A program made the translations under genes and the position numbers. DNA of 64,000 nucleotides from Stenotrophomonas aracearum (GTDB lineage Bacteria; Pseudomonadota; Gammaproteobacteria; Xanthomonadales; Xanthomonadaceae), in the NCBI RefSeq assembly GCF_031834615.1, contig NZ_CP115543.1:1747001-1811000 (forward strand), in the 5' to 3' direction. The notes under the pieces are model-generated. The model made no database searches. It was not told the origin of the DNA and saw only the letters and a program-made list of their open reading frames with translations. The number at the start of each line of letters is the position of its first letter. Within the stretch, counting starts at the first letter, position 1. Positions 1 to 7,849 of the stretch are shown piece by piece.

Positions 1-2646
1 GTCGTGCAGCAGGCCCTGCAGCAGTTCGTTGGCCGCTTCCGGCTGGTCCAGGTGCACGTAGCTGAGCACGTTGCGGATTTCATACGGCGTGTAGGCGTAC
101 AGCGCGTCGGGCTGGTTGCGCTTGCGCACGTCGTCCAGGTAGCGGGCAAAGGTGGTGCGCAGCGCCTGTTCCGGCAGCACGTCCTGCGCGCCGGTCGGGT
201 CCAGTGCGATCGACACGCCGGTTGGGTCGCCATCGCCCAGGTCTGCCGAGGAAGGAATGAAATCGATGCCCTTCCACGCCATGGTGGCGCGGATCGAGGC
301 GGCCAGCGCATCGTGCAGGGCACGGTACTGTTCGCGCGCCCATGCGGCAGTTTCATGATCGCCGAGCTGCTCAGCCAGCCACGCGCCGTCGTGCCAGCCC
401 TTCAGGCCCCAGTAGTCGTCCCAGTAGCTGTGGGTCGGCGAGGGGTAGCCCTCATGGCTGATCGACGGCGCAAGGATGCCGGCGAAGCGTTCCGGCGCGG
501 GTTGGTTGGCCATGTAGCCGGGCACCAGCGTGCGCTCGCGCAGCTCCTGCAGGAAGCGCAGTGCGGCCTTCACCTTGGGCAGGTAAGCGCGCACCGATTT
601 CGGCCCGCCGTCGAGCCGGGCGACGTCGGCCACCAGCGCCACGTACTGGCCCTGGCTGTCGTACTCGATGTCCGAACCGAAACCGGTGTTGACGCTGCCG
701 TCGTTGTTGAGGATAGGGGAGACCAGACCGTTCTCATGCACACCGTGCTCGGTGTACCAGGCCAGGTAGTCGCGCGCGATCTTCGACTCGCCCATGCGCA
801 GCAGCACCGCCGAAGTGGCCATGCCGTCGCGGATGAAGGAGCGGTTGTAGTTGCGTGGACCGGGCTGCATGGCCGGGCCGGTCTGGTTGATCAGCATGTA
901 AGCGGCTTGCGCGCGCAGCATGTCCACCAGCGAGGGGTCGGGCAGGCGCAGTCCGACCTGGCCCAGGCGTGCCTGCCAGTCGTTGGCGGCGCGGCTGGCC
1001 AGCGTGTCAAAGGTGGCATCCGCATCGGCGGTATCCAGCACGAGCGCCGGGGCTTCCGGCAACACCCCGTGCGCGTCGGCCGGCGCGGTGCCGAGCGGGA
1101 ACGCCACGACCACGGACTGGCTGGCACCCGGTGCGAGCTGGATGCGGTAGGCGAGGGCGGCTGACGCCAGGCCCTCTAAATCGTCCGCCTGCTGCGCACG
1201 GGGCAACTGACCCGCTGCGACGGCGGCGGTGATCTCGGTGCTGCCATCGGGACCGAACGCAGCCGCGCCGGCGCTTTCGACCGGGGTGAGCGAGCGCAGC
1301 AGCGTGCGCTGGTTGACCCGCACCGCGTTGTCCTCGACCGCAATGCTGCGGATCGGCGACAGCCCACCGTTCTGCCACGGCGGATTCATCTGCATCGGCC
1401 GCACCACCAGGTTGAGGGTGCCATCCACCGGCGCGCTGCCGCTGTTGTGCAGGCGATGGCGGACCAGGGTGACCGGTTGCCCGTCCAGCTCCACGGCGAA
1501 CGCTTCACTGCGCAGCTCCAACCCGGGTTGCGGTTGCCAGGTGGCAGACGGCATCGGCTTCCAGCCATCGCGCAACGCGTGCTGCACGGACTGGTTGGCG
1601 GCTGCAGCGGTGGTGCCGTCGGCACTGCGCCAGATCGGCTGCACCAGCGGCGCGCCCTTGAACGCTTCAATGTTGCCGTGCTCGTCGAAGATCGACTTCT
1701 GCAGGCCCCCATGCACGCCCACGGCGGTCCAGTAGGTCTGCTGCATGTGCAGGGAGGCCGGGAACAACGCGCGGTCCGCACCACTGGCGGCGATCTGGTA
1801 ACGCTTCATCGGGGTCATGACCGCAGCGGGGCCGAGCAGGCGCACGCGGGCGATCTTCGGCGCGTCGCCGTCGACCTGCAGGCGCAGGGCGTGCGCGGTC
1901 ACCGGCGCGGTGCCGGCCAGCCAGCTCTGTTGGCGGCTGCCGGCCTGCGGGTCGTGCGCAAGGTCGGTCCATCGCCCGTGGGCGTCCTGCGCCTGCAGGC
2001 GTGCGGCGCCGTGCGCGCCGGCCCATTCAACGGCCAGGCCGGTGGTTGCCAGCGCGTGCGGCAATGCGATGTCGAGCACATGGCTACCCGCTTTGCTGGC
2101 GGGAACGGCGATGGCGCTGCCGCCCTGCCACAGCGCCGCTGCCTGGGCTGCATCCAGTCCGGCAACGCGGAGGCCGGTGCGCGCATCCAGCGGCTCCAGT
2201 TCGAAGATGGACACACCCCAGTCGGAGGTGCGCTCGGGGCTGGCCAGGCGCAGGTAGCGGGCCTGGCGCGGGGCGAAGGACACGGTTTCGATACCGCCCA
2301 GCGAATCGCGCATGGTGTACGCGGTCTGCCACTGCGTTCCGTCCAGCGAGGTCTGCAGGCTGTAGCCCTCGGGATTGGAGACATCCCAGGTCACGCGCGC
2401 GCCGGTGAGGGTGGTGGGCTGCCCCAGGTCGATCTGGAACCAGTGCCCGGGACTGAAGGCGCCGCCGGTGACGGTCTTGGGGTCGTTATCGATCAGGTGA
2501 CCGATCGCCATGGCCGCGACCTGCTGGGAGGAACTGCTGGCTTTCCACGCCGACCGGGGCGGAAGGTCCTGGGCGAAGCCCGACGACGCCAGGAACAGGC
2601 CAAGTGTGGAAAACAACAGCGTGCGGCGAACTACATGCAAGCCCAT
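1..2646 (-). CDS. Secreted F5/8 type C (discoidin) domain glycoside hydrolase-like protein, partial at C-terminus
   Basis: The gene starts at 2646 on the minus strand and is still open at base 1, so at least 882 codons are present and the C-terminus is missing. The first 25 or so residues form a Sec signal peptide ending near SSGFAQ. Residues about 30-155 read as an F5/8 type C carbohydrate-binding domain (HLIDNDPKT, WFQIDLGQPTTLTGARVTWD, YLRLASPERTSDWGVSIFEL). The region from about residue 590 (RAQAAYMLINQTGP, NYNRSFIRDGMATSAVLLRMG, YWDDYWGLKGWHDGAW) looks like an alpha/alpha six-barrel glycosidase core. A periplasmic or outer-surface polysaccharide-degrading role is inferred; the substrate cannot be read. 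A palindromic LacI-type site lies 57-72 bases upstream, suggesting sugar-responsive control, but no regulator is next to it. Confidence 0.75.
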   Translation of the reverse strand, partial: MGLHVVRRTLLFSTLGLFLASSGFAQDLPPRSAWKASSSSQQVAAMAIGHLIDNDPKTVTGGAFSPGHWFQIDLGQPTTLTGARVTWDVSNPEGYSLQTSLDGTQWQTAYTMRDSLGGIETVSFAPRQARYLRLASPERTSDWGVSIFELEPLDARTGLRVAGLDAAQAAALWQGGSAIAVPASKAGSHVLDIALPHALATTGLAVEWAGAHGAARLQAQDAHGRWTDLAHDPQAGSRQQSWLAGTAPVTAHALRLQVDGDAPKIARVRLLGPAAVMTPMKRYQIAASGADRALFPASLHMQQTYWTAVGVHGGLQKSIFDEHGNIEAFKGAPLVQPIWRSADGTTAAAANQSVQHALRDGWKPMPSATWQPQPGLELRSEAFAVELDGQPVTLVRHRLHNSGSAPVDGTLNLVVRPMQMNPPWQNGGLSPIRSIAVEDNAVRVNQRTLLRSLTPVESAGAAAFGPDGSTEITAAVAAGQLPRAQQADDLEGLASAALAYRIQLAPGASQSVVVAFPLGTAPADAHGVLPEAPALVLDTADADATFDTLASRAANDWQARLGQVGLRLPDPSLVDMLRAQAAYMLINQTGPAMQPGPRNYNRSFIRDGMATSAVLLRMGESKIARDYLAWYTEHGVHENGLVSPILNNDGSVNTGFGSDIEYDSQGQYVALVADVARLDGGPKSVRAYLPKVKAALRFLQELRERTLVPGYMANQPAPERFAGILAPSISHEGYPSPTHSYWDDYWGLKGWHDGAWLAEQLGDHETAAWAREQYRALHDALAASIRATMAWKGIDFIPSSADLGDGDPTGVSIALDPTGAQDVLPEQALRTTFARYLDDVRKRNQPDALYAYTPYEIRNVLSYVHLDQPEAANELLQGLLHD

Positions 2647-2702
2647 CGAAAACAACCTCGTACTCGTGCCTCGCCAGTGAGGCGGGGCAACCCTAACAGG
2701 GG

Positions 2703-2718
2703 ATGTAATCGGTTACAT
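2703..2718. promoter_or_regulatory. LacI-type operator palindrome upstream of the F5/8 glycosidase gene
   Basis: ATGTAATCGGTTACAT is a 16-bp palindrome except for one central pair. Its TGTAA-N4-TTACA form with a central CG is the usual shape of LacI/GalR-family operators. It lies 57 bases before the start at 2646. The matching regulator is not in this window; the local LacI sites at 41763-42130 have a different sequence. Confidence 0.5.
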
Positions 2719-2901
2719 GACGCAGTGCAATATGTGGCCGGGTCCCCGTCGCCGGACGGCCCGGTTGACGAATCGTCAGGTGCCGCATGCCTTGACTTGA
2801 CAGGCTGCCCGTTCAGCAACGCATCGCCCCCGCCCACACTGGCAACCGAAGTCACGGCCTGCCGGCTGATGACGCAATCGGTCCATTTTTGGGGAAACCA
2901 C

Positions 2902-3426
2902 ATGATCAGCATTCCAGTTTCAGACACCTCGCACGCTCGCCTGTCCCGCGCTTCGCGCTGGTTGTGCAGCATCGGCTACGCCGTGCTGGCCGTGTTCTTC
3001 GCCTGGTCCGCGTTGAGCGGGCACCGTGAGGCGGAAGCCATCCTCAAGGATGCGGTGACCGTGCAGGCGCCGGTGCAGGTCGACCATATCGAAGAGAAGC
3101 GCCGCAAGGGCAGGGTCTCCTACCAGTACCACTTCCGTTACGACTTCGAAGCCAACGGCGTTACCCATACCGGCACCTTCTCCACCTCCGAAGACAATGC
3201 CGCGCCGTACCTGGGCGACGAACCGCAGGTCACCGTGGCGTACGCGCGGGCCGATCCGTCGCACTTCGAGCGGCTGGACCGGCTGGAAGGGCAGAAGAGC
3301 CTGGGTTCGGTGCTGGGGCGGGTGATCGTGGCGCTGGGCATGCTGGCGATCCTGGCCTTCATCGTGCACCTGCTGCTGACCCGCAAGTTGTTCGTGCGTC
3401 AGACGCCCGCCGTCCCGGCCGGCTGA
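2902..3426 (+). CDS. DUF3592-type membrane protein
   Basis: This 174-residue protein has a hydrophobic segment at about residues 22-42 (SIGYAVLAVFFAWSALSG) and another at about 143-163 (RVIVALGMLAILAFIVHLLL). Between them lies a soluble, probably periplasmic, domain with the pattern of DUF3592 proteins (RKGRVSYQYHFRYDFEANGV, a TGTFSTSEDNAAPYLGDE stretch, then VTVAYARADPSHF). The family has no assigned biochemical activity. The start at 2902 is the first in-frame ATG with the membrane segment directly following; AGGGGAAACCAC-like purine-rich sequence precedes it. The gene stands alone, divergent from the F5/8 glycosidase gene and 92 bases before the next plus-strand gene. Confidence 0.7.
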   Translation: MISIPVSDTSHARLSRASRWLCSIGYAVLAVFFAWSALSGHREAEAILKDAVTVQAPVQVDHIEEKRRKGRVSYQYHFRYDFEANGVTHTGTFSTSEDNAAPYLGDEPQVTVAYARADPSHFERLDRLEGQKSLGSVLGRVIVALGMLAILAFIVHLLLTRKLFVRQTPAVPAG

Positions 3427-3518
3427 GCCGGGAGACCGTCGTGGCCGGTTCGCATATGGTTGACAGTCCAAGCGGTCACGGTAGGGTGTGCGGCTCACTC
3501 CCTTTCTGGTCGTTTCCC

Positions 3519-4736
3519 ATGCCTGCCCTGGACTTCGCGGACCTGCTGTCCCGGCACATGCGGCGGATCCGCGCCAGCGCGGGTGGGGTGGCCTCGGAGA
3601 TCGGGATCAGCCGTGAGGCGGTCAACAACTGGCGGGCCGGCATCTCGCGGCCCAGCCGCCGCCATCGCGACCGCGTGCTGGCCTGCGCCAACTACCTGCG
3701 GCTGACCGAAATCGAGTGCAACGCGTTGCTGCAGTCGGCCGGCTTTGAACCGGAGTTTCCGGCGGAGCCGGCCGCCACGGCAGCCAATGAAGGGCAGGCG
3801 GCGCCACCGGTGCTGGTGCCGCCCACCGTCACCCGGTTGTTCGACCGGCTGCAGGCACTGCGGCCGTATCCGGTCAGTTTGTTGCTGACCCAGGCGCACT
3901 GGGGCCAGCCGCCCGAGCGCGCGGCGATCCTGGCCGAGGCGGCCATGCGCTATGGAAGGGATCGGGTGCTGCACCTGCAGCCCCCGTTCCGCGCCGGCGA
4001 GGGCGACCAGGATTACTTCGCACTGCTGGCCGCGCAATGCGGGCTGGACGGTGTGTCCTCCGATGCCAGCTTCGAAATGGCGCTGGCGCGCGTGCTGCAG
4101 CAGCCCGGCCCGTTGTTCTGCCTGGTCAGCCGCTTCGAGCAGGGCGCGCCCGAACCGCGCGACGTGCTCGCCGGAATCCTGCGCAGCCTCAGCGAAATGT
4201 ACAGCGGCAAGCTGCACCTGTTGATCTGCGGCGGCGCTGCATTGGCCGACCTCAAATACCAGGGCGGCGATCTGTCGCTGCTCAACATCGCCGCTACCGA
4301 GAGCTGGCCGGAACTGGGCGTGGATGACCTGCGCCGTGGCGCGGTCGACGCGACCGAGGCCACGCTCATGCGTGCGCTGCATCTTTCCGGTGGGCATCCC
4401 CTGCTGGCCCAGGCGGCGCTGGTGCTGCTGGCCGACGCCAGCCTGGACGATGCGGCGATCACCGAAACGCTGTCCACCCATCCGCGGCTGTGGGAAGCGC
4501 TGGTGCCGTTGCTGCGCGATCCGGCTACCCGCAGCACGGTGGAAGGCTGGCTGGCGCGCCCCTCACTGGGACCGGCGCGCCCCTACCTGGCCGATCCACT
4601 GCTGCGCCAGCTGTACTGGAGCAACCTGCTGGCGGCCCGCGCGCAGCCGCACGGCGCGTTCCTGGAATGGCGTTGCGAAGCGATCCGCCGCGCGGTGCAC
4701 CAGGTGATCGAAGGGCTGGAGGCGCAACCGGCATGA
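3519..4736 (+). CDS. XRE-family HTH protein with degenerate AAA/STAND-like domain
   Basis: The protein has 405 residues from ATG 3519. In-frame ATGs at 3441 and 3456 would add an unlikely N-terminus. Residues about 5-75 form a helix-turn-helix (GGVASEIGISREAVNNWRAG), followed by a Pro/Ala-rich linker to about 105. Residues about 110-300 align in layout with a P-loop ATPase core. However, the expected Walker A is replaced by LTQAHWGQPPERA, with no GKT/S, and the strand-4 segment reads LFCLVSRFEQG instead of a hhhhDE Walker B. Nucleotide hydrolysis is therefore unlikely. The C-terminal 100 residues are helical and uncharacterised. The stop overlaps the next start by 4 bases (ATGA), so the two are translationally coupled and probably form one system. 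Function is unknown; a DNA-bound partner or adaptor of the downstream ATPase is an inference. Confidence 0.7.
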   Translation: MPALDFADLLSRHMRRIRASAGGVASEIGISREAVNNWRAGISRPSRRHRDRVLACANYLRLTEIECNALLQSAGFEPEFPAEPAATAANEGQAAPPVLVPPTVTRLFDRLQALRPYPVSLLLTQAHWGQPPERAAILAEAAMRYGRDRVLHLQPPFRAGEGDQDYFALLAAQCGLDGVSSDASFEMALARVLQQPGPLFCLVSRFEQGAPEPRDVLAGILRSLSEMYSGKLHLLICGGAALADLKYQGGDLSLLNIAATESWPELGVDDLRRGAVDATEATLMRALHLSGGHPLLAQAALVLLADASLDDAAITETLSTHPRLWEALVPLLRDPATRSTVEGWLARPSLGPARPYLADPLLRQLYWSNLLAARAQPHGAFLEWRCEAIRRAVHQVIEGLEAQPA

Positions 4737-6925
4737 TGACCTTGCCGCGCAGGTCGCTCGGCGTGGGCGTGCCGCTGCTGCTGGTGATCGGGCTCACCTG
4801 GTTCGTCGGCAGTTACCTGTTCGTGCCGTGGCTCAATCCGGTCCAGCTGTGGCGCATGCAGCGCGACGGCGAAAGCATGATGCTGATGCAGCGGGCGAAC
4901 ATTGACATGATGTTCCTGCGCGAAGAAGCGCTGTCGTACTGGCTGCAGCATGAAACCTGGCCGAGCGAGGTCGCGGTGCCCGGCGTGCACGATCCCGCCG
5001 AGACGCTGGTGGAGGCCGAGTTGCCGCGCCCGTGGGTGCTGCGACTGCGCTTCAGCGATCGCTTCCCGGCCAACAGCGGACTGGGCGGCACGGTGATCGA
5101 ACAGACCCTGGAACCCAGCACCCAGTACTGGCGCTGTCGTCCGGGCACTCCGGCGCCGCCCGCGCGGTGGTTGCCGGCCAACTGCCGCGCGCAGGAGCCG
5201 TGGACCATCGTGCAGTGGTTGTCGCTGCTGCTGGGCGGTTCGGTGCTCGGGTTGGCCGCGCTCGGCCTGCTCTGGTACTGGGTGCGGCCGGCCGTGGCCG
5301 CGATCATCGCCGAGCCGAAGCTGCTGTTCGAGCAGCCGCTGCAGGGCCTTCCCGCCATCGACCGCCAGCTGGGCTGGCTGCGTCTGCGCGAACGCGTGTT
5401 GGCGGGCGCTGGCATTGCCACGGTGCGGTGGCGCGACGCGCTGCGCCAGCTGCACGCGTCTCCCGACACCCGCGCCCAGCAGCTCGCCGCCCGGATCGGC
5501 GCGGTCGACGCGCCCGCGACAGGTTGGTCGCTGCCCGGGCTCGTCCGCGAGTGGACCCTGCCGGACAAGCTTCCGCTGGCCCTTGAGCGGCTGTGGCTGT
5601 ACCAACCCGAGCCCGGGCTGGCGGTTGACGCCATCGTGCACGCGCTGCGCAGCATGCCCAACGGCCAGGACGTGGTGCTGGTAGTGAGTCCTTCGCTGGT
5701 AGCAGAGCCGGAACTGGTTGCCTACGCTGACGACCCAGCCAACCTGTGCGTGTGCCTGGAACAGGTCGCGCAGACGCGCTGGCTGCTGCAGCCCGGTGCG
5801 CTGGACGGTCTGGTCGACCTGCTTGCGCGCCAGCTGCGGGTGACCCGGATTTCGCCGTACCAGACCCACGGCGGCATTACCCGCCCCGGTGCGTTCTTCG
5901 GCCGCGCGTCGCTGCTGGCGCGCGTGCTCAATCGCGAGCCGGGCAACTACCTGCTGGTGGGCGGGCGCCAGCTCGGCAAGACCAGCCTGATGAAGGCCAT
6001 CGAACGGCGCTTTACCGGCCACCCGCGCGTGCACTGCGTGTACCTGTCGCTGCGCGACCACCGCCTGACCATGCGCCTGGCGATGGAGCTGGGCATGGCC
6101 GAGGACACCGGCATCGATGCGCTGGTCGCCGAGCTCTCGGCCCGTGCCGCCGGGCGCGGCCTGTTGCTGCTGATCGACGAGACCGATCTGTTCCTGCGCG
6201 CCGAAGCCGCGCAGGGCTACCCGCAGTTGCTGGCGCTGCGCGCGCTGAGCGAGGAAGGCCGCTGCCACTTCATGCTGGCCGGGTTCTGGGACCTGTACGA
6301 AGCGGTCACCCTGGACTTCGCGTCGCCGCTGCGTAATTTCGGTGACGTCATCCACGTCGGCAGCCTGGAAGAGGACGCCTGCCGGGCCCTGGCGACCGTA
6401 CCGATGGCCCGGTTGGGCGTGCACTACGCCAGTCCTGACCTCCCGAACCGACTGGTGGCCGCGTGCGGGCACCGCGCCAACCTGGTGGCCATCACCTGCC
6501 AGCAGCTGCTCAGCCAGCTCGGGCGCGGGCAACGCGTGCTGGATGCCGCGCAGGTGCATGCGGCACTGGTAAGCGAGCCGGTGATGGATGCGCTGGCGGG
6601 CTGGGCACGATTGAGTCCGGATCCGGTGGCATGCCGGATCGACCGCATCGTGGTCTACCAGGTGGCGTTGGCGCAGCTTGCGGGCAGCGGCGAGCGTGGG
6701 ATCACGTTGCTTGAGCTGCTGGCCGCGTTCGATGCGGCCGGGGTGCGGGTCGACCCTGAGCAGGTGCGGCATGCGTTGGCGCGGTTGCAATTGGCGTACG
6801 TGATCCGGCGCGAGGCCGATGGCTTGCCGTTCGTGTTCGCGGTGCCGGTGTTTGTTACGCAGTTCCAGCGCGAGGAGGTGCAGGCGCTGGTGCAGCGGGA
6901 ATTGCAGGCGATGGGCGGCAGCTAG
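4733..6925 (+). CDS. Membrane protein with pilin-like periplasmic domain and cytoplasmic AAA ATPase domain
   Basis: The 730-residue protein starts at ATG 4733, overlapping the preceding gene by 4 bases. A first membrane helix spans about residues 11-33. Residues about 50-152 resemble the globular part of a type IV pilin: EEALSYWLQHETWPSE matches the AVAEYY..WPS segment, and WRCR followed by RWLPANCR matches the pilin C-terminus WTCS..KYLPASCR, including the two cysteines (135 and 151) of the pilin disulfide loop. A second membrane helix is at about 157-183. The cytoplasmic part has a linker to about 370, SPYQTHGGITRPGAFFGR, Walker A GGRQLGKTSLM near 410-420, Walker B LLLLIDETDLF near 477-487, and a C-terminal winged-helix-like tail. 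The prepilin peptidase motif GFxLxE is absent, so the pilin-like domain should stay anchored. Signal transduction from periplasm to ATPase is inferred. Confidence 0.7.
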   Translation: MMTLPRRSLGVGVPLLLVIGLTWFVGSYLFVPWLNPVQLWRMQRDGESMMLMQRANIDMMFLREEALSYWLQHETWPSEVAVPGVHDPAETLVEAELPRPWVLRLRFSDRFPANSGLGGTVIEQTLEPSTQYWRCRPGTPAPPARWLPANCRAQEPWTIVQWLSLLLGGSVLGLAALGLLWYWVRPAVAAIIAEPKLLFEQPLQGLPAIDRQLGWLRLRERVLAGAGIATVRWRDALRQLHASPDTRAQQLAARIGAVDAPATGWSLPGLVREWTLPDKLPLALERLWLYQPEPGLAVDAIVHALRSMPNGQDVVLVVSPSLVAEPELVAYADDPANLCVCLEQVAQTRWLLQPGALDGLVDLLARQLRVTRISPYQTHGGITRPGAFFGRASLLARVLNREPGNYLLVGGRQLGKTSLMKAIERRFTGHPRVHCVYLSLRDHRLTMRLAMELGMAEDTGIDALVAELSARAAGRGLLLLIDETDLFLRAEAAQGYPQLLALRALSEEGRCHFMLAGFWDLYEAVTLDFASPLRNFGDVIHVGSLEEDACRALATVPMARLGVHYASPDLPNRLVAACGHRANLVAITCQQLLSQLGRGQRVLDAAQVHAALVSEPVMDALAGWARLSPDPVACRIDRIVVYQVALAQLAGSGERGITLLELLAAFDAAGVRVDPEQVRHALARLQLAYVIRREADGLPFVFAVPVFVTQFQREEVQALVQRELQAMGGS

Positions 6926-7849
6926 TCACTCGCCGGGTTTTGCGGCAGCGCTGGCGGCTTCGGAGGCAGCGCGGCGTACCAGTACCGCTTCGCGATGCGC
7001 GATGTAGGCGTTGGCGCCGAGGATGATGCCGGCGCCGATCACGGTCCAGCGGTCCAGGGTTTCGCCGAACAGCAGCCAGCCCAGCACCGCCACCAGCGGC
7101 AGCTGCATGAAGCTGATCGGGGTCAGCGCGGAGACTTCGCCCAGGCGCAGCGCACGCGTCCACATCAACTGGCCGAGCGTGCCGAGCAAGCCGGTGGCGA
7201 TCAGCCACATCCAGCCGGTGCTGTTCGGCCAGACCCAGACGAACAGGGCCGGCACCAGCGACATCGGCACCCAGAAGGCATACGTGTAGAACACCACCGT
7301 GTCGGCGCCATCGACGCGGGTGAGCTGTTTGATCTGGATCGCGACCAGCGAGCTCAGTACCGCCGCCAGCACCGCCACCAGCAGGCCCGGACTGAACGAG
7401 TCGGCGCCGGGGCGCACGATGATCAGCACGCCGATGAAGCCGCAGACCACCGCGGCCCAGCGGCGCAGGCGCACGGTCTCGCCCAGGAACAGGACGGCGG
7501 CGACGGTGACGAACAGCGGCGTGGAGTACGACAGCGAGATCGCCTGCGAGATCGGCAGGTGGCCGATCGCCCAGAACGCGCACAACATCGAGGCCAGCCC
7601 GATCAGGCTGCGCACGAAATAGCGCGGCAGCTGCCGGGTACGGAACGGTGAACTGCCCGGACGCAGCAGGAACGGCAGCAGTGCGAGCAGGCCGAACGCG
7701 TTGCGGAAGAACGCCACTTCCTGGGTTGGCACATGCCGCGTGGCATAGCGGATGGCAATGGCCATCAGCCCGAACGCCATCGTGCTGCCGAACATCAGCA
7801 GCGCCGCACGCATCGGCGTGGGCGCGGGCAGGGCACGCGGCGCGGTCAC
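6926..7849 (-). CDS. DMT-superfamily transporter (EamA family)
   Basis: The protein has about ten hydrophobic helices arranged as two EamA repeats ([56 protein letters not shown], and in the second half [35 protein letters not shown]). This is the drug/metabolite exporter fold; the substrate cannot be inferred. I chose GTG 7849 because it overlaps the murB stop by 4 bases (GTGA), giving 307 residues. ATG 7813 would give 295 residues and is the alternative. It is the last gene of the run pyrD-murB-DMT. The stop codon directly abuts the stop of the convergent ATPase gene (6925/6926). Confidence 0.8.

Follow-up and report, generated by a model that had tools for sequence, protein, structure and literature searches.

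The nearest described kind of system, as the main text of its report presents it, is a mobile two-gene operon in which an active STAND protein is paired with an eroded one and the GT4 or HEPN effectors are exchangeable (Kaur et al. 2021, PMC8195603); the main text of a further report sets out iSTAND and beta-propeller ternary systems that rest on a MoxR-vWA pair (Kaur et al. 2020, PMC7159879). Here we analyse a two-gene module in a 64,000-nucleotide stretch of DNA (hereafter the window; C1:1747001-1811000 of a 4.33 Mb single-contig genome of Stenotrophomonas type), consisting of a membrane receptor ATPase, P0001 (4733-6925, 730 amino acids), to which the protein of its closest named relative, Stenotrophomonas sp. 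VV52, is 99% identical, and a partner protein, P0002 (3519-4736, 405 amino acids). We read the pair, with a probability of about 0.6, as a trans-envelope receptor made of a pilin-headed membrane STAND ATPase and a catalytically dead partner that carries an XRE-type helix-turn-helix (HTH), and it looks like one version of a modular bacterial surveillance system not described before.

Going by the main text of PMC8195603, its operon and our pair have in common two jointly encoded STAND-type proteins (STAND/ORC-like in ours), one of them eroded in its nucleotide motifs, with exchangeable domains borne by the inactive member, whereas in our family the active member is anchored in the membrane and its extracytoplasmic sensor varies, the inactive one bearing an XRE HTH or a TIR domain; the likeness is one of published description. 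The systems of PMC7159879, as described in its main text, share with the wider family an inactive STAND, propellers, membrane segments and variable effectors that include HTH domains. The word 'pilin' is absent from the main texts of both reports, and no pilin-fold sensor on a STAND ATPase was described in the titles and abstract openings of the open-access literature among the matches listed. The PADLOC 2023 defence models gave 0 matches to P0001 or P0002 at E≤1. Measured against the main texts of the two reports, then, active and eroded STAND pairs with exchangeable effectors are already known, and the pilin-headed STAND-like receptor would be what is new.

A pilin-fold head fused to an active-looking ATPase

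A preliminary description of this locus had placed a pilin-like domain of P0001 between two membrane helices, joined it to an intact AAA ATPase, and assigned to the partner an N-terminal HTH and an ATPase-like core without Walker motifs. The coordinates, the ATGA overlap of the two genes and the sequence motifs were all found again where it had put them (in P0001: WPS at residues 76-78, WRCR at 133-136, RWLPANCR at 145-152, GGRQLGKTS at 410-418 and LLLLIDETD at 477-485), and the overlap suggests coupled translation.

Hydropathy segments at residues ~7-34 and 158-184 enclose the head, which is predicted to lie outside the cytoplasm. Five residues (W76, P77, W133, C135 and C151) are invariant in 13/13 head rows, and the P, W, C and C are retained in all 21 of a more diverse set. 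When the 13-row head alignment was compared by hhalign with 38 distinct Xanthomonadales pilins, which had been selected by a GFTLIE-like motif, the cleavage site of the prepilin leader, the probability was 94.3% (P 1e-7, score 45.3); the highest score among 200 column shuffles was 22.2, the reversed profile scored 7.3, and control segments (those of alignment A1 outside the head, together with all five of A2) scored 7.3 to 11.0. The 21 diverse sensor domains, run against the pilins without shuffles, gave 97.4% (P 1.3e-11). Pfam Pilin (PF00114) matches 5 of the 21 heads scanned, at best with 1.4e-4, the window's own head giving no match. The model of the head region, the structure prediction that the preliminary description had proposed as a check, shows the pilin helix and a four-stranded sheet, that is, the pilin globular fold, and agrees in this with hhalign.

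The head thus has in common with type IV pilins (PF00114) the helix, the four-stranded sheet and a C-terminal W-C ... LP-C loop, whereas pilins have a single helix and a free outside C-terminus, and P0001 continues into another membrane helix and an ATPase. Because, in addition, residues 1-40 of P0001 hold no GFTLIE-like prepilin cleavage site, the protein is no ordinary pilus subunit. Across 12 homologues identity runs from 23 to 70% in the head and from 68 to 90% in the AAA part; in 10 of them the head shows the lowest conservation among the four P0001 parts, and in the other two (L011, L012) the linker does.

In three loci (L156:4672-5448, L158:5271-6017 and L031:14624-15118) the module has, no more than a few kb away, further pilin-domain proteins unlike the usual pilus subunits, which combine a hydrophobic start, a coiled coil and a pilin domain or, in one case, are lipoprotein-like. 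A canonical pseudopilin lies near the module in a fourth (L021:9700-10254). The closeness of these proteins is only suggestive. Separately, a Stenotrophomonas protein (L037, G000:C1:3744009-3744326) unites a pilin domain with a membrane helix and an N-terminal GYF-like stretch recognised by eye, and relatives repeatedly show PF00114 matches in open frames of similar length.

The ATPase is intact in its signature motifs: Walker A and the Walker B aspartate are kept in every row of the alignment (Table 1), which left out sequences below 180 bits or covering less than 80% of the model and in which one row is a repeat record (L029 = L021). Foldseek with the full P0001 model placed 2qen, Cdc6/ORC and RuvB among the top matches. 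Since the model is weak in the AAA part (predicted template modelling score 0.37), the term 'STAND/ORC-like' leans also on an nSTAND1 match (1.3e-5, below cut-off) in the ATPase of a relative (L135).

A probable degenerate homologue as partner

The best reading of the P0002 sequence is that of a degenerate ATPase, homologous to the one beside it. Walker A is gone from 17/17 aligned partner cores, and SRFE-like letters stand in place of the Walker B acids in 47/47 partner rows (one a repeat record), in keeping with the loss first described for the window protein. The partner core aligned in register with the ATPase profile at a probability of 72% (P 3.3e-5, run without shuffle control), and at 63% (P 6.8e-5) with another match-state setting; the kinship appeared only with diverse members, the narrow alignments A1 and A2 giving no useful signal when compared with each other (P 0.057). 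One partner core also has an AAA_35 match (7e-5, below cut-off). XRE-family regulators share the N-terminal HTH, and P0002 differs from them in the dead STAND-like core that follows it. Of 61 partner N-termini, 40 gave an HTH_3 match with E≤0.1, the strongest at 2.2e-7, and the window protein stays below the Pfam threshold for an HTH (HTH_31, 18.3 bits against a cut-off of 27). In NCBIfam P0001 had no match and P0002 two weak ones (0.043 and 0.18), and sequence searches of solved structures gave no convincing match for either protein.

Other sensors and outputs in relatives

In a different order of this class (family label f43) the same two cores are found with other ends; surveys there gave 37/42 for the ATPase profile, many of these being generic AAA matches only, and 24/42 for the partner profile. 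WD40 repeats were recognised in 17 of 22 long non-pilin heads scanned (L137 at 2.1e-124) and NHL repeats in the head of L135 (6.8e-29), with four more NHL heads seen by eye (L136, L147, L150 and L268); the ATPases of L129, L132, L140 and L142 are nearly headless. In one WD40 version (L027) the partner homologue is 2.5 kb away, and between the two module genes lies, on the opposite strand, a gene for a 748-amino-acid repeat-containing protein (L027:7027-9273, minus strand).

The inactive partner, its nucleotide motifs lost, likewise carries exchangeable effectors. The 61 N-termini scanned exclude two repeat records (L029, L270), two partners with no N-terminus (L154, L155) and one at 56.9 bits (L151); beside the HTH_3 matches, TIR_2 was found in 7 of them (best 2.7e-14), and GT4 and HEPN were not among the best 25 of the 49 families matched. 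On fuller partner sequences TIR_2 reached 1.7e-26 (L254), 2.1e-16 (L259), 2.7e-15 (L128), 3.2e-15 (L131), 4.4e-14 (L266), 1.4e-9 (L134) and 7.2e-5 (L261, below cut-off). The TIR models of PADLOC recognise L254 (1e-15 at best) and L128 (1.5e-7) and gave no match to L134. At what we take to be the catalytic TIR position the glutamate is kept in 5 of the 7 and lost in L131 and L134. Three TIR partners (L128, L131 and L134) accompany WD40 ATPases, the other four having no ATPase in the stretch, and the partner of L146 begins with hydrophobic stretches (by eye). The N-termini of 30 pilin-type partners all resemble the window's HTH region (50-97% identity), so that TIR has not been seen together with a pilin head.

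Linkage and distribution

The preliminary description had asked whether the two genes always co-occur, and the answer differs between classes. With pilin heads the partner adjoins the ATPase in 30/30 fetched loci, a count from which L029 (same record as L021) was dropped, with G961 not fetched and a contig-edge copy in G510 unjudgeable. Neither outcome that the preliminary description had named as refuting its reading, a head model lacking the pilin helix and sheet or two genes that are mostly unlinked, was thus observed. Outside the pilin class the genes are often apart: of the 22 loci whose head is long and not pilin-like, 13 have the partner within the stretch fetched for the ATPase and 9 do not, some of these at contig edges (for L144 the count used L270, which covers more of that contig); the partner lies several kb off in L269 and L270, and another gene intervenes in L027 and L146. 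Conversely, 14 partner stretches have no ATPase (L154, L155, L254-L263, L265 and L266). Tight linkage is therefore a trait of the pilin class and not family-wide.

The ATPase was found in 9/61 genomes, the window's own included, and in 5/37 Stenotrophomonas; more widely it was found in 18/250 genomes of the order (one weak), 5/369 of the class (two weak) and, at E 1e-20, 8/398 of the phylum. A plasmid scan returned three partial matches only, and a scan of phage records none. Short extra P0001-like stretches (L017:12152-12382, corresponding to residues 619-694, and L180:74-331) are possibly remnants of second copies.

Filamentous phages and competing explanations

Among viral contigs (IMG/VR) the ATPase was found in three loci (L271-L273), all of which have phage genes 3' of the module. 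The pilin-type head is present in L271 and L272, the receptor gene of L273 having an internal deletion that removes it; the partner and the gene upstream of it are present in L271 and L273, and L272 begins at the ATPase. The phage replication protein matches phrog_2969 at 4e-27 (L271) and is 32-34% related to those of the Xanthomonas filamentous phages phiLf, phiXv2, XacF1 and Cf1c, and a glycine-rich protein encoded among the phage genes resembles, by eye, a filamentous adsorption protein. A phage-free locus (L153) matches L271-L273 up to a single point, L153:11340, 97 bp past the ATPase stop, in a dif-like half-site (L153:11324-11340). The sequence up to this point ends ATTTAACATAATATACA, which we take to be the dif centre together with one of its arms. 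As homology ends at one base within this half-site, a filamentous phage seems, from the sequences, to have inserted next to the module at a dif-type site. The classical dif pattern had no match at any locus; the half-site derived from L153 did match, and none of this type was present in the window.

These phages use pili and so come to stand next to a pilin-headed receptor. The same observations would suit an anti-phage or superinfection-exclusion system, directed against filamentous phages or carried by them, whose head is a bait resembling the phage receptor. We consider this rather unlikely. The three phage-bearing loci are a single related lineage, and dif is a general integration hotspot, so that the adjacency may reflect one lineage and perhaps only a hotspot effect; moreover, L153 has the module without a phage, and the window lacks such a site. 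Neither a bait derived from resident pilins nor a decoy recently captured from among them is supported, as the heads are not closest to the resident pilins.

A housekeeping role in the envelope, in which the head reports on the type IV pilus apparatus, its subunit pool or its assembly, and the pair tunes pilus or surface genes without any part in immunity, would account for the pilin fold of the head, the XRE output of the window lineage, the conserved promoter-like site (Table 1) and the presence of pilins in 22/22 of the module-carrying genomes given. Yet the module is patchy where pilins are not, the former in 5 of 37 Stenotrophomonas although 29/31 relatives have the latter; in relatives these cores are joined to propeller heads and to TIR outputs; and the heads are, again, not nearest to the resident pilins, which together make such a role unlikely. 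That the head senses DNA uptake or envelope DNA, in the manner of the DNA-binding minor pilins ComP and FimT, which are of this fold, is very improbable, and a DNA-binding head was set aside, since the window head is acidic (isoelectric point 5.4, 12 K+R against 15 D+E) and the ComP family is not among the five families matched by the 21 heads.

Chromosomal slot and upstream genes

The pair has a G+C content of 0.70, against 0.68 for the window. In Stenotrophomonas its slot lies between a glycosidase-like gene (window 1-2712, minus strand) and an EamA-MurB-PyrD run, names assigned by eye, and this variable slot corresponds to window positions 2712-6926 and to L198-L202 and L205-L212. Among 15 EamA stretches the unit is present in L204, and the genome of L203 (G026) carries it ~10 kb away; the remaining 13 have neither the unit nor the DUF3592 gene described below, and none of the 11 genomes among them that were searched genome-wide (all but G1062 and G1060) has an ATPase match. 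Three slots that were read hold other cargo, namely HipA kinase-, Ugd- and phosphotransferase-like genes (by eye).

A gene for a small DUF3592-like membrane protein precedes the pair in 14/24 loci, with a relative downstream of the pair in L156-L158; the match is below cut-off in the window (Table 1) and above it in L157 (6e-6), and the gene is a possible third component in this lineage. Eight loci (L019-L022, L031 and L160-L162) have instead a different upstream gene of ~240 amino acids, and L152 and L153 a third kind of small protein, both with a hydrophobic C-terminus. The system may thus include a small membrane protein that varies in kind. The TTGACA element upstream of the partner gene was recognised by eye in L019, L020 and L022 as well; it came from the alignment of upstream regions, a mechanical promoter scan having reported none at the pair.

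Table 1. Positions of the module, its parts and adjoining elements in the window.
Feature	Position	Strand	Evidence
DUF3592-like small membrane protein, linked upstream gene	2902..3426	+	Pfam DUF3592 1e-4, 23.3 bits, below cut-off 25.3
Promoter-like site TTGACA-N16-TAGGGT, 5' of partner gene	3460..3487	+	TTGACA invariant in 11/11 aligned upstream regions
Partner protein P0002: XRE HTH and catalytically dead STAND-like core	3519..4736	+	Sequence, alignments
N-terminal XRE-type HTH, residues 1-78, output slot	3519..3752	+	HTH_31 0.0029, HTH_3 0.016, both below cut-off
LFCLVSRFEQ, Walker B position, acidic pair lost	4113..4142	+	Aligned partner rows (47); alignment with the ATPase profile
Membrane receptor ATPase P0001	4733..6925	+	Sequence, alignments, model
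Membrane helix 1, residues 12-34	4766..4834	+	Hydropathy; model helix 12-34
Predicted extracytoplasmic pilin-fold sensor, residues 36-155, two conserved cysteines	4838..5197	+	hhalign, Pfam, model
Membrane helix 2, ~residues 158-184	5204..5284	+	Hydropathy; model helix 159-184
Cytoplasmic helical and alpha/beta linker domain, residues 185-370	5285..5842	+	AlphaFold secondary structure, block pLDDT 71-92 (residues 191-370)
Walker A GGRQLGKTS	5960..5986	+	GK[ST]S in 55/55 aligned ATPase rows
Walker B LLLLIDETD	6161..6187	+	Asp in 55/55 rows; next residue E 50, Q 4, D 1

Proposed mechanism and significance

In the trans-envelope receptor that we favour, a ligand, be it a phage that binds pili, a pilus subunit or some other intruder in the envelope, would contact the pilin-like head and the contact would shift the ATPase between nucleotide states. 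The active and the dead STAND cores may build a hetero-oligomer in which the dead subunit acts as adaptor, and the N-terminal domain of the partner would be the output. In the window lineage this output is presumably DNA binding, which would make the response probably transcriptional, and the regulated targets could include the operon itself and the small membrane protein upstream. The functional reading of the preliminary description, that pili, envelope damage or phage are sensed and the signal is relayed to DNA, is putative and fits what was found; its account of the architecture is incomplete, the pilin head and the HTH each being one among several alternative end modules in a larger family.

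The TIR domains on the adaptors of relatives point to a surveillance or immune role for that family. Tentatively, and at clearly less than even odds, we propose a class of trans-envelope immune receptors with swappable pilin, WD40 or NHL sensors, a STAND ATPase, a dead adaptor and swappable XRE, TIR or possibly two-helix membrane outputs, the pilin version of which would watch at the periplasmic face for invaders, chiefly filamentous phages, that exploit pili or imitate them. Bacterial STAND (NLR-like) sensors have, to our knowledge, mostly been described as cytoplasmic. If this holds, a STAND switch whose outer head can be exchanged would show how bacteria detect threats at or in the envelope, and the pilin fold would gain a role as receptor; with pilin, WD40 or NHL at the outer end and HTH or TIR at the inner one, the modular build makes this wiring directly testable.

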